From: Sedimenticola sp.
GTDB taxonomy: Bacteria; Pseudomonadota; Gammaproteobacteria; Chromatiales; Chromatiaceae
Direction: 5' to 3'
NCBI GenBank assembly: GCA_011051655.1
Contig: DRKS01000003.1
Span: forward strand, 62,001 to 126,000
Length of the DNA stretch: 64,000 nt
The translations under genes were made by a program, and so were the position numbers. Below, in pieces: positions 42,309 through 46,660 of this stretch. The notes beneath the pieces are model-generated. The model did no database searches. It was not told the DNA's origin and saw nothing but the letters and a program-made list of their open reading frames with translations. Every line of letters begins with the position of its first letter. Position 1 is the stretch's first letter.

Positions 42309-44351
42309 TCATTTTTTCATTTCGGCCTTCATCTTTTCCATCAGCTCCCTGTCCATGAGGCCGAGGCCTCCCCCATCCGGAGCCTGGTTGGATTCCACAT
42401 AGTCCCGGATGGCGGCGAAGCGCTTGGCGGCCTGTTCGTTGTCCTTCAGCCGGGGCACCCGCTCTCTGGCGATCTCCCAGGCGCTGAAATCGAGGCTGTT
42501 CATGCCGAAGCCCTTCATGCGGCGGACGGCGCGCATCAGGGCCCGGTTGCGGTAGCGGGTCAGGTCCTCGCTGGTGATGCGCTCCAGGCCTTCGCGGCGG
42601 GCATTGAATTCGGCGGCCTTCTTGATGCCGGCGCGGTTGAAGTCGGGGGCGGACTGCACCCGGGCCAGGGCGTCGGGGTCCCACTCCACGCCGGCGGTCC
42701 CGGTCTCCACCACCTTTTCGACGTCACGGGCGGCCACGACATCGGCGCCCCGGCGCCTGGCCTCGCGCTCCGCGGCGGCCTCCATGGTGGGCTGGATGAA
42801 GAGCCGGGCCTGGGGTTGGCGGTCCGAAAGGAGCTTTTCCATGGCCTGCCCGGCCGCCGGCTCCCACTCGAGCGCCCGCTCTGCCTCTTCTTTGCCCTCC
42901 AGGCGGTGCAACAGCTTCATGTTGACCTCGAGCCGTCCTTCGTTGCGGGCCACCTCTTCGGCCACCTGGATCAGGCTGTCGCGCAGGAAGCCCGGTGCCT
43001 CTTCCATGTATTCCCGCGCCTCCCGGGTCCAGGCCAGCGGGGGCGGGGCCTGTGCCGGTGGGGGAGCGGGTTCCTCTGTCGTGGCCGGGGCCGGGGCGCT
43101 CTCCGGGCGCATGCCGGGATGGCTGCCGCCAAAGCGGTTCGAGGCCAGGGTGGCCATGTGGTCGGTGGTGACAATGCGTTCGCCCAGCTCCCGCACATGG
43201 GATTCGGCCCGCTTGCGCACCATCTTGCGCAGGAAACCGGGCACCCGCGAAAGCCGCTGTTGTGCCTCGGGAGACCAGGTGATCCGGTCGCAACCCTCCT
43301 CTTCGAGGGGCTGGATCACGGCTGCTCCCTCCGGCCGGTAGCCGCACCAGGGGTCGGCGTCCATCAGGGTTCCGCCCATGGCCCTGGGCCGGGCGCGGCA
43401 GCCGCCGCAGAGCTTCTGGAATTCACACTGGCCGCATTTGCCGTTCAGCCTGGGGTTGCGCAGCAGCTCGAAGGTGGGGGCCTTGTCCCAGATCTCCCAG
43501 AAGCCGGTCTCCCGGATGCTGCCGTCCTCGTCCGGGATGTAGGGGCAGGCGGTGACCGCGCCCTCCGGGGTGATGCGGCAGTAGTGGATGCCGGCCAGGC
43601 AGCCGCCCCCCTCGTAGCCCTGGGCGCGGGTCAGGGGGGATTGCGGGTCGCGCTGGTAGGCCACCCGCTTGAAGTGGGGGGCGCAGCGGGCGCGGATGAT
43701 CAGGTCCCCGGTCCGTTCCTGGGCCTCGACGAGCTGGTTCAGCACTGCTTCGTAGCGGGCGGGGGTGATGTCCGACATGGACTCCCCCCGGCCGGTGCAG
43801 ACCAGGAAGAAGATGTTCAGCACATGGGCGCCGGAGGCCCTGGCGAAGTCGATCATGGCCTGGACTTCGTGGGCGTTGTTCTCGGTGACCGAGAAGTGAA
43901 CCTGGAAGGGGAGCCCGTGCCTGCGGCAGGCCTCCATGCCGGCCAGGGTCTTCTCCCAGCTTCCGGGGCAGCCGCGGAAGCCGTCGTGGTGCTGCGGGTC
44001 CAGGGAGTCCAGGCTGATGCCCATGCCCATGGCCCCCGCCGCCTTCAGGGAGACGACCCGCTTTTCGTCCAGCAGCACCCCGTTGGTGCCCACCACCATG
44101 GAGAGCCCCAGGCCGCTGCCGTGGGCCACCAGCTCGTCCAGGTCGCGGCGCAGCAGGGGCTCGCCGCCGGTGAGCACCACCATGGTCTCGTTGCTGCGGC
44201 CGGCGATTTCGTCCAGCAGGCCCCTGACCTCCCCGGTGGTCAGCTCGTCCGGCCCGCCGCTGTCCCGGGTCTTTGCATCCATGTAGCAATGGGCGCAGGC
44301 CAGGTTGCAGCGGCGGGTCAGGTTGACGGCGATGATGAAAAGGTCGTTCAT
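42309..44351 (-). CDS. NirJ-like radical SAM/SPASM protein with four PCP_red-type repeats
   Basis: A 680-residue protein. The radical SAM cluster motif is CNLACAHC (C15, C19, C22), with GGEPLLRRDL and GISLDSLDP as substrate/AdoMet loops. The SPASM-type part holds C251, C258, C269, C306, C309, C315, C318 and C336; the GGGCLAGIHYCRITPEGAV stretch is as in NirJ/AhbC/AhbD heme enzymes. From 358 on come four units with the W..EA...L..VPGF.R pattern (359-402, 441-483, 496-547, 557-598) like the PCP_red domain of protochlorophyllide reductase. Its ATG is 48 bp after the stop of the USP-type gene. Confidence 0.85.
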   Translation of the reverse strand: MNDLFIIAVNLTRRCNLACAHCYMDAKTRDSGGPDELTTGEVRGLLDEIAGRSNETMVVLTGGEPLLRRDLDELVAHGSGLGLSMVVGTNGVLLDEKRVVSLKAAGAMGMGISLDSLDPQHHDGFRGCPGSWEKTLAGMEACRRHGLPFQVHFSVTENNAHEVQAMIDFARASGAHVLNIFFLVCTGRGESMSDITPARYEAVLNQLVEAQERTGDLIIRARCAPHFKRVAYQRDPQSPLTRAQGYEGGGCLAGIHYCRITPEGAVTACPYIPDEDGSIRETGFWEIWDKAPTFELLRNPRLNGKCGQCEFQKLCGGCRARPRAMGGTLMDADPWCGYRPEGAAVIQPLEEEGCDRITWSPEAQQRLSRVPGFLRKMVRKRAESHVRELGERIVTTDHMATLASNRFGGSHPGMRPESAPAPATTEEPAPPPAQAPPPLAWTREAREYMEEAPGFLRDSLIQVAEEVARNEGRLEVNMKLLHRLEGKEEAERALEWEPAAGQAMEKLLSDRQPQARLFIQPTMEAAAEREARRRGADVVAARDVEKVVETGTAGVEWDPDALARVQSAPDFNRAGIKKAAEFNARREGLERITSEDLTRYRNRALMRAVRRMKGFGMNSLDFSAWEIARERVPRLKDNEQAAKRFAAIRDYVESNQAPDGGGLGLMDRELMEKMKAEMKK

Positions 44352-44354
44352 TAT

Positions 44355-44409
44355 CCGGTTTCCAGTTGACGGGTTAGTGAGAAGTCAACCGTAAACCGTT
44401 AACCGTTAC
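44355..44409. repeat. Short GTTAACCG/GTTGAC-type repeats at the gene junction
   Basis: Loose heptamer-like units (CCGGTTTCCAGTTGAC, CAACCGTAAACCGTTAACCG) fill the space between the two PCP_red-repeat genes. The stop codon of the upstream gene lies inside the stretch, at 44401-44399. The units resemble those inside that gene at 45059-45086. Confidence 0.7.
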
Positions 44410-46660
44410 GCGAATCATTGGGGGCAAGGTGAAAAACGCCGGTCTGTCGCCAGGCCTGTTTCACCGCGTCTACCGCCTCGGGGGTGACCTTCTCCAGGCC
44501 CTGGCGCCGGGTCCAGTCCTCGATCTCCCGGATGAGCATGGCGCGCACCATGTCGGGGGCGCGCTGGATGCGTTCGCGGGCCTCATTTTCCCAGGGCAGG
44601 GTCTCTTCGGCGGTGGTTGAATCGGACATGAAGGTCTGCATCAGCCGCCCCATCAGGGCGGGGGTGACCTCTGCCTGGCCCGCCTTGGCGGCCATGGTCT
44701 CGGCGGCCTTGGCGGTCATGTCCCGACAGAAGCCGGCAGGTACGTTTTGCAGCATGGCCTCGGCTTCGGGGCTCCAGGCCGGGCCGCCGGCCCGGCCTGG
44801 CTCTTCGGTCTTCGAAGAGGCCTTGTGGGCGAAGGGGCAGCCACCGGTTTTGGGTTCGGCCGGCGTGGCGTTGCTCCCCATTTGGCCTGCCATGGCCTCG
44901 CGGGCCCGGGCCAGTCCCGCCTCCGCGATCTCCAGGGTGATTTCGCCGTGGCCTTCGGCGCGGGCATAGTCTTCGATGCGTTCCTTGGAGGCGTCGCGCA
45001 TGAACCCTTCGGGTACCCGCATCAGGCGGGCCAGGGCGGCGGCATGCCAATGCAGACCGGTTTCCGGTTGACGGTTTCCGGTTGACGCAGGCGCTGTACC
45101 CGCATCCTGGTGCGTATGGAGGGCTTCTGCGCCCGGGTTGAATTCGCCCACCTCCACGTCGTCATCGATGAAGGGTTGGATGTGTTCGGCCTCTACGGTG
45201 CGGCTGCCGCTGGCGCGGGCCTTTTTCTCCGCCCGCATGCTGAGATTGCCGCGCAGGCTCAGGTCCTTGACCGTGAGCAGCGCCCGGGTGGCCTGGTCGC
45301 TCCAGCGCAGAGCCTGCCCCGCGAGCGGAGCGAGTGCCGTGGGCATGGTCTCTCCGGCGCCGGGCTTGCGCTTGAGTTCGCCCTTGTCGTAGGCCTCCAC
45401 GATCTCGGCCATGGCCTCCTCGGCATGGCCGGGCATGAGCTTGGCGGTGGCCTCGTCCACGATGCTTTCGGTGATGACGGTGTGGCCGTGCTCCTGGGCG
45501 TAGCGCAGGATGGCCATGCGCGCCATGTTGCGCACGAATGACGGCACCCGCTCCATGCGGGCCTCGGCCTCCTTGGTCCAGGAGGTGGTGACCGAGGCGA
45601 GGCGGTCCACCTGGGGCTGGTGTTCCCGCTGGCTGAGCAGCAGGGCGCAGTCGGCGTCATGCAGCAGGGCCTCGGCGTTGCCGCCGATGTCCAGCCCGGG
45701 GTCGGCGTGGATGCCGGTGGTGCCCAGCACCAGCAGGGAGGGCTTCACCTGCTTGAGGTATTTGTTGATGACGTCGTGAGGCTTGCCGTCCAGCAGGACG
45801 GTTTCGGCCTCGATGCCGTGGTCGGCGGCAATCTGCCGGGAGACGGCCAGATGGCCCTGGTAGATCTTGGCCAGGCCGGAGTCGATGATCTCCTCGTGCA
45901 ACTGCTCCTGCTCCTGGAAGCGGAACACCTTGCCCGCCTCCTGTGAGAGCACTCCGGCGATGCGGTTGAAGGCCACATAGTGATAGTAGGGGTCGAAGGC
46001 GGAGACCACCTTGACCGGCGTCTGCCACTGCTGCGCCAGGGCCAGGGCGGTGAGCAGGCCGCCATAGGATTTGGCGGAACCGTCCACGGCCACCACGATG
46101 GGCCCCTCGGAGAGGGCGCGGGTGGGCTCTTTGATGACCAGGGTGTCGATCCGGCTGCGCCGGGCCACCCGTGAGCAGACGGTGCCCAGGCGGCTGTTCT
46201 TTATGGCCCCCAGGCCCAGGGCGCCCATCACCAGCAGGTCGTAATCACCGCCGTTGGCCTCGTTGACCATCTCCCGGTAGTTCTTGCCCTCCAGGGCACG
46301 GCGGGTGATCCGGATCCCTTTGTCGCTGCTCTCCCGCTCCACCTGGTCCAGGTAGGAGTCGGTGATGATGTTCAGTCCCTTGGTGATGAGGTCGTCATGC
46401 ACCTCCCGCTGGCGCTCCAGCTCCTGCTCCTGGCGGTACTGCTCCGGCAGCCCCCCCTCCATCTGGCGAAAACGCATGTCATGGAGCCTGGCCGCATAGA
46501 CGTGGGCGGCGCTGAGGCGGCTGTCCCAGATCTCCGCCAGCCTCAGGGCCTCGGTGATGCCGCGGTTGGAGTGGTCGGATGAGTCCACCGCCAGCAGGAT
46601 GGAGCCGTAGGCCGGCAGCGGTTGAACCTGGGGTGCTTCGGATTGGGTCTGGACATTCAT
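44399..46660 (-). CDS. Tandem universal-stress-protein domains with five PCP_red-type repeats
   Basis: A 753-residue protein (MNVQTQSEAP start). Two USP domains come first: YGSILLAVDSSDHSNRGI to DTLVIKEP (about 18-178), and GPIVVAVDGSAKSYGGLL to CALLLSQ (about 186-345). The second keeps VLGTTGIHADPG near the nucleotide loop. From about 361 come five PCP_red-like units (361-406, 452-500, 538-588, 629-677, 690-737), each with W..EA...L..VP.F.R and a following helix; the second is degenerate. No membrane segment. It is upstream of, and likely co-transcribed with, the NirJ-like gene. The function is unknown. Confidence 0.83.
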   Translation of the reverse strand: MNVQTQSEAPQVQPLPAYGSILLAVDSSDHSNRGITEALRLAEIWDSRLSAAHVYAARLHDMRFRQMEGGLPEQYRQEQELERQREVHDDLITKGLNIITDSYLDQVERESSDKGIRITRRALEGKNYREMVNEANGGDYDLLVMGALGLGAIKNSRLGTVCSRVARRSRIDTLVIKEPTRALSEGPIVVAVDGSAKSYGGLLTALALAQQWQTPVKVVSAFDPYYHYVAFNRIAGVLSQEAGKVFRFQEQEQLHEEIIDSGLAKIYQGHLAVSRQIAADHGIEAETVLLDGKPHDVINKYLKQVKPSLLVLGTTGIHADPGLDIGGNAEALLHDADCALLLSQREHQPQVDRLASVTTSWTKEAEARMERVPSFVRNMARMAILRYAQEHGHTVITESIVDEATAKLMPGHAEEAMAEIVEAYDKGELKRKPGAGETMPTALAPLAGQALRWSDQATRALLTVKDLSLRGNLSMRAEKKARASGSRTVEAEHIQPFIDDDVEVGEFNPGAEALHTHQDAGTAPASTGNRQPETGLHWHAAALARLMRVPEGFMRDASKERIEDYARAEGHGEITLEIAEAGLARAREAMAGQMGSNATPAEPKTGGCPFAHKASSKTEEPGRAGGPAWSPEAEAMLQNVPAGFCRDMTAKAAETMAAKAGQAEVTPALMGRLMQTFMSDSTTAEETLPWENEARERIQRAPDMVRAMLIREIEDWTRRQGLEKVTPEAVDAVKQAWRQTGVFHLAPNDSRNG
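45059..45086. repeat. Tandem 14-bp repeat inside the USP gene
   Basis: GGTTTCCGGTTGAC occurs twice in a row. It encodes the linker TGNRQPETG before the third PCP_red-like unit (residues about 527-536). The same kind of motif lies in the intergenic stretch at 44355-44409, so an intergenic repeat appears to have entered the coding frame. Confidence 0.8.

Follow-up and report, generated by a model that had tools for sequence, protein, structure and literature searches.

A conserved gene pair with PCP_red repeat arrays in Sedimenticola belongs to a larger module that most likely serves tetrapyrrole maturation

AhbD acts on the propionates of coproheme and yields heme b (PMC11306076), and AhbDs with two auxiliary clusters possess the full SPASM motif CX20-33CX17CX36-37CX2CX5CX2CX17-35C (PMC10452713). 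NirJ of heme d1 synthesis is also a SPASM radical SAM enzyme acting on tetrapyrrole propionates. The PCP_red domain is found in BchB/ChlB of dark protochlorophyllide reductase, where it is a single C-terminal unit (2KRU). Tandem universal stress proteins (USPs), such as UspE and TTHA0350 (3AB8), possess two USP domains with an ATP motif in the first. Here, we compare these systems with two adjacent genes of Sedimenticola sp., whose products are termed the USP protein and the rSAM protein.

The window, the whole stretch of 64,000 nucleotides that was analysed, contains the pair in the order USP-rSAM, with 47 bases between both open reading frames (ORFs). The original prediction had described a two-gene system with nine PCP_red-like repeats, and both ORFs were found where it had placed them (Table 1). 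Each of the nine units was scanned singly against Pfam. PCP_red (PF08369) was the best family for all nine units, of which seven exceeded the curated cut-off of 32.5 bits (34.8-60.4 bits) and two were weak (16.7 bits, E=0.008). Thus, the repeats are PCP_red units, and the arrays in both genes are far beyond chance. A phmmer search with the rSAM protein also matched 2KRU, the solved C-terminal domain of BchB. In the AlphaFold models, which are usable for the USP protein and the helical units, the PCP_red units form short helical repeats in both proteins. From the helix pattern, residues ~620-680, which end the rSAM protein, may form an extra degenerate unit. In contrast to the single unit of BchB/ChlB, the units here form arrays in both proteins, and no nitrogenase-like (Oxidored_nitro) domain was detected beside PCP_red in either protein by Pfam. 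No PCP_red was found beyond these two genes in the organism's own 3.1 Mb genome; therefore, BchB is absent there. A promoter and terminator scan gave nothing above chance.

Table 1. Positions of the genes, domains, motifs and repeat units in the window
Feature	Position	Strand	Basis
USP gene: tandem universal stress protein, 5 PCP_red units, 753 aa from ATG	44399..46660	(-)	ORF + Pfam
USP domain 1, ATP motif G146-x2-G149-x9-G159-T	46133..46612	(-)	Pfam; glycines invariant
USP domain 2, degenerate ATP motif G-x2-G-x9-G-G	45626..46105	(-)	Pfam; sequence
USP PCP_red unit 1	45449..45580	(-)	60.4 bits
USP PCP_red unit 2, weak, residues ~453-495	45176..45304	(-)	16.7 bits, E=0.008
USP PCP_red unit 3	44921..45049	(-)	43.3 bits
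Cys-Pro-Phe 608-610 in variable, disordered linker between USP units 3 and 4	44831..44839	(-)	alignment
USP PCP_red unit 4	44651..44776	(-)	43.9 bits
USP PCP_red unit 5	44459..44593	(-)	37.7 bits
rSAM gene: AhbD/NirJ2-like radical SAM/SPASM protein, 4 PCP_red units, 680 aa	42309..44351	(-)	ORF + Pfam + NCBIfam
CX3CX2C radical SAM motif, C15, C19, C22	44286..44309	(-)	invariant, 41 aligned homologs
Full SPASM set C223-x27-C251-x17-C269-x36-C306-x2-C309-x5-C315-x2-C318-x17-C336	43344..43685	(-)	alignment of homologs; fits AhbD motif of PMC10452713
rSAM PCP_red unit 1	43152..43277	(-)	56.9 bits; also matched in genome search
rSAM PCP_red unit 2	42906..43031	(-)	34.8 bits
rSAM PCP_red unit 3, degenerate, with insertion, residues ~496-546	42714..42866	(-)	16.7 bits, E=0.008; helices in model
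rSAM PCP_red unit 4	42555..42683	(-)	39.6 bits

Shorter relatives of the rSAM protein (424-447 aa) possess one PCP_red unit, and some relatives of the USP protein possess three. The long arrays may have arisen by extension of shorter arrays. In addition, stand-alone PCP_red ORFs of 61-96 aa occur outside the module at L091, L089 and L090 (genomes G217, G420 and G470).

The Pfam scan detected Radical_SAM, SPASM and PCP_red in the rSAM protein. Its best NCBIfam model was NirJ2 (TIGR04055; 310 bits), closely followed by the AhbD heme synthase (TIGR04545; 305 bits), both below the equivalog cut-off of 500. Against NirJ (TIGR04051) it scored about 158 bits (157-158), below the cut-off of 515.45, whereas the true NirJ of the same genome, at the separate locus C100, reached 628 bits. 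The identity of the rSAM protein was 40% to an archaeal AhbD-like protein (Methanolinea), which itself scores below the AhbD cut-off. Its identity was lower to the neighbouring AhbC/NirJ1-like protein (34%) and to the true NirJ encoded in its own genome (28%). Each of its eleven cluster cysteines was kept in at least 95% of the aligned homologs. The spacings 27, 17, 36, 2, 5, 2 and 17, together with CX3CX2C, agree with the full SPASM motif of AhbD. The radical SAM/SPASM core is thus shared with AhbD/NirJ2, whereas the PCP_red units, the proteobacterial host and the linked genes described below are different. Judging from its sequence, the protein would work like AhbD, yet it is not classed as AhbD. 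Of the earlier claim of a NirJ-like, heme-modifying radical SAM half, the likeness to heme enzymes was borne out and the assignment to NirJ was not. In a structure search, PqqE, SkfB and SuiB were among the best matches of the rSAM model, whose SPASM part has low confidence.

Two Usp domains (PF00582) were detected in the USP protein with 118 bits, above the cut-off, in addition to PCP_red. With G-2x-G-9x-G-S/T as the definition of the ATP motif, the first domain possesses the motif, as its suggested ATP sensing had led one to expect, and the second lacks the last Ser/Thr. The best structural match of the tandem USP fold was 3AB8, which is ATP-bound. Foldseek matches of the model to cation-chloride transporters were taken as spurious helix matches. 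Unlike UspE and TTHA0350, the USP protein has the PCP_red array and long extra segments (RFRQMEGGLPE, DPYYHYVAFNRIAG) that are nearly invariant among its homologs; we know of no such segments in ordinary USPs. Furthermore, C608 (97%) and P609 are conserved in 33 aligned homologs. Cys-Pro-Phe (CPF) occurs in most of the 36 USP homologs, some of which are truncated, and lies close to the C-terminus in the three-unit forms. Cys-Pro motifs bind heme in other proteins. By analogy, the conserved CPF is a possible heme-binding motif, which we regard as a lead.

A scan of the genomes of ~85,000 species gave 38 proteobacterial loci, including those of Sedimenticola, Thiodiazotropha, Thiothrix, Gallionella and Ferrigenium, and one archaeal AhbD-like locus. 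Both genes were present in 36 of the 38 proteobacterial loci, which confirms that they are linked. In most loci, a HemY-type protoporphyrinogen oxidase (PPOX) gene comes next after the pair. The typical gammaproteobacterial cluster begins with genes for a CydA-like protein, cytochromes c or a HEAT-repeat protein and a CarboxypepD_reg protein, and continues with USP, rSAM, PPOX, F14, a sensor kinase and NtrC. In the window, the pair stands alone next to BrkB and Kdo-kinase genes. However, contig C44 of the same genome carries a CydA-like gene, cytochromes c, an ethylbenzene-dehydrogenase-like cytochrome c protein, PPOX and clade III NosZ. Therefore, the window locus is one part of a split module. 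The proposed two-gene system was thus too small, since the conserved unit also contains PPOX and the CydA-like cytochrome complex.

Several other genes were observed at the module. In many betaproteobacterial loci, clade III NosZ and a cytochrome c lie upstream of the pair; the lactonase-type NosZ (NF052460) at L065:3865-5622(+) scored 750 bits (cut-off 700). Clade III NosZ adjoins the pair in Gallionella-type genomes, which contrasts with a 2023 pangenome of the Gallionellaceae, where nosZ was reported in no genome (PMC10734462). As a general partner, clade III NosZ was rejected because, among the 210 genomes of the order, it was above the cut-off only in the organism's own. In addition, contig C44 encodes a heme-copper-oxidase-like protein (L076:8686-10041(+); COX1 family, 35 bits), possibly of the nitric oxide reductase type. 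At L078:147-5693 (G223) and L066:98-5763, genes for an arsenite-oxidase-like molybdoprotein, a Rieske protein and a MauG-type peroxidase adjoin the module, an arrangement that we take to resemble dissimilatory iodate reductase (idr). A large molybdopterin oxidoreductase, NarG/NXR-type in appearance, adjoins it at L080:12531-16076 (G036) and L088/L092 (G329). The array carrier G102 (L079) has a broken CarboxypepD_reg gene and a duplicated PPOX piece, and a CydA-like gene was not found there; this is perhaps a decaying or rearranged module.

The co-occurrence of these genes was analyzed in 210 genomes of the order. Arrays were counted from the listed frames in 40 of them, including two partial cases and G223, which has two units. 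HemY-type PPOX was present in 38 of the 40 array genomes and in 2 of the 170 others (Fisher 6e-37). The CydA-like gene was present in 36/40 and 0/170, respectively (2e-36; 8e-14 over genera); in these statistics, relatedness is allowed for at the genus level only. The array genomes without a CydA-like match were G012, G074, G102 and G220, of which G012 and G074 are incomplete. In a class-wide sample of 274 genomes, all 10 array genomes possessed the CydA-like gene, mostly on the same contig as the array and within ~20 kb, as did 2 of the 264 others (G302 and G402), in which no array was detected. Cytochrome d1 proteins (37/40 array genomes, 74/170 others) and any NosZ (24/40 and 61/170) were both enriched with arrays, and neither is specific. 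Heme d1 was therefore rejected as the specific link, given also the separate NirJ. A search of open-access literature found no paper that deals with PCP_red arrays or with this set of genes.

The module PPOX scored 252 bits against TIGR00562 at L069, above the cut-off of 97.85, and the PPOX on contig C44 scored 214 bits. Nearly all non-carriers of the order lack a HemY-type PPOX and must therefore use another enzyme. HemJ was found in the organism's own genome and in 15 of 39 carriers; the remaining carriers presumably use HemG. Since order members that lack the module manage without a HemY-type PPOX and HemJ is present in the own genome, the module PPOX is not the housekeeping enzyme. In the own genome, at least, and in the 15 carriers with HemJ, it is an additional enzyme. 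Among the independent evidence, this additional PPOX points most strongly to a tetrapyrrole role, on which the original prediction had speculated.

The CydA-like partner is a member of PF01654, the bd-oxidase superfamily (85 bits), and is distant from solved CydA. Five histidines are invariant among 14 divergent members, including H273 and H107, which aligns with a histidine of solved CydA. In contrast to CydA of bd-type oxidases, it has adjacent cytochrome c genes in the clusters read here, and a glutamate present in solved CydA is not retained across the aligned sequences.

Based on these results, we conclude that the pair is real and conserved and is part of a larger module, whose most likely role is tetrapyrrole maturation for the CydA-like complex. 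That the pair itself is the cytoplasmic tetrapyrrole-maturation part of a respiratory module is a reading to which we give an even chance. In its favour, PCP_red is known outside this pair from a tetrapyrrole enzyme (2KRU), the rSAM protein combines closer identity to the AhbD-like protein than to NirJ with the AhbD spacing, and its partner has the CPF motif. Also in its favour, the array co-occurs with PPOX and the CydA-like gene, and PPOX, which is not the housekeeping enzyme, follows the pair in most loci. From the observed domains, cysteine pattern, linkage and co-occurrence, we infer the substrate, product, hand-over and client as follows. The HemY-type PPOX would aromatise the porphyrinogen. 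The AhbD-like enzyme, bearing the SAM cluster and two auxiliary [4Fe-4S] clusters, would then act on the (iron-)porphyrin that results, at its propionate side chains. The PCP_red arrays of both proteins would serve as binding sites, either for the tetrapyrrole or for one another. Equipped with ATP and a Cys-Pro motif, the USP protein would hold the product and pass it on. The heme made in this way, which may differ from plain heme b, would enter the CydA-like membrane protein, a bd-oxidase superfamily member with dedicated cytochromes c.

Genomic association is no proof of heme delivery to this complex, the chemistry is a proposal, and the module PPOX could serve general heme supply. The explanation is weakened because the rSAM protein is below both the AhbD and the NirJ2 equivalog cut-offs and the SPASM part of its model was predicted with low confidence. 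It is also weakened by G302 and G402, in which no array was detected, by G223 with its few units and by the four array genomes without a CydA-like match.

The pair may instead form a private bypass to ordinary heme b, in which PPOX acts as a coproporphyrinogen oxidase and the AhbD-like enzyme decarboxylates coproheme under low oxygen. No new heme would then be made, and the arrays would merely channel intermediates. AhbD turns coproheme into heme b (PMC11306076), PPOX and the AhbD-like enzyme would cover two steps of such a route, and the carriers are mostly denitrifiers, nearly all with cytochrome d1 proteins. However, a general route would not be expected to be confined almost perfectly to genomes that have one particular cytochrome, and the module is missing from non-carriers that share the carriers' order and lifestyle. 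We therefore regard this bypass as unlikely.

The SPASM relatives PqqE, SkfB and SuiB act on peptides. Their place among the best structural matches, and the several dedicated module proteins that are possible substrates, would fit a peptide maturase whose target is a side chain in the CydA-like protein or its cytochromes c, with the PCP_red arrays for docking. Such a maturase is improbable, since the rSAM protein is closest in sequence to the tetrapyrrole enzymes AhbD/NirJ2 and has the exact AhbD cysteine spacing, and the linked PPOX points to a porphyrin. The ATP and CPF motifs, and the sensor kinase and NtrC-type regulator in many clusters, are consistent with a USP protein that is not a carrier but an ATP- and heme-sensing regulator of the rSAM enzyme or of the linked NtrB/NtrC. 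Nothing connects the USP protein to transcription, however, and the kinase pair is missing near the window locus and the betaproteobacterial loci, which makes a regulator very improbable. Membership in heme d1 or chlorophyll-type pathways, to which PCP_red, the NirJ-like sequence and the frequent cytochrome d1 proteins of carriers had pointed, is largely refuted and scarcely credible, since the true NirJ lies at a separate locus, cytochrome d1 proteins also occur in 74 genomes that have no arrays, and PCP_red occurs only in the pair, with no BchB in the genome.

In its fullest form, the preferred reading of tetrapyrrole maturation is tentative: through PPOX, the AhbD-like enzyme and the PCP_red carrier arrays, the module might make an undescribed modified heme or altered-propionate porphyrin for a cytochrome-c-linked bd-superfamily member that serves respirers of nitrogen oxides and possibly of iodate. 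That a respiratory complex is accompanied by a porphyrin oxidase and a radical SAM heme-type enzyme of its own suggests a heme so far undescribed, and the module is a concrete gene set for examining this possible new heme. PCP_red gains a context outside the (bacterio)chlorophyll enzymes, as a repeat common to two proteins. Moreover, the module hints at what a cytochrome-c-linked branch of the bd-oxidase superfamily may do; this branch occurs in sulfur and iron oxidisers, and many of these organisms reduce nitrogen oxides.
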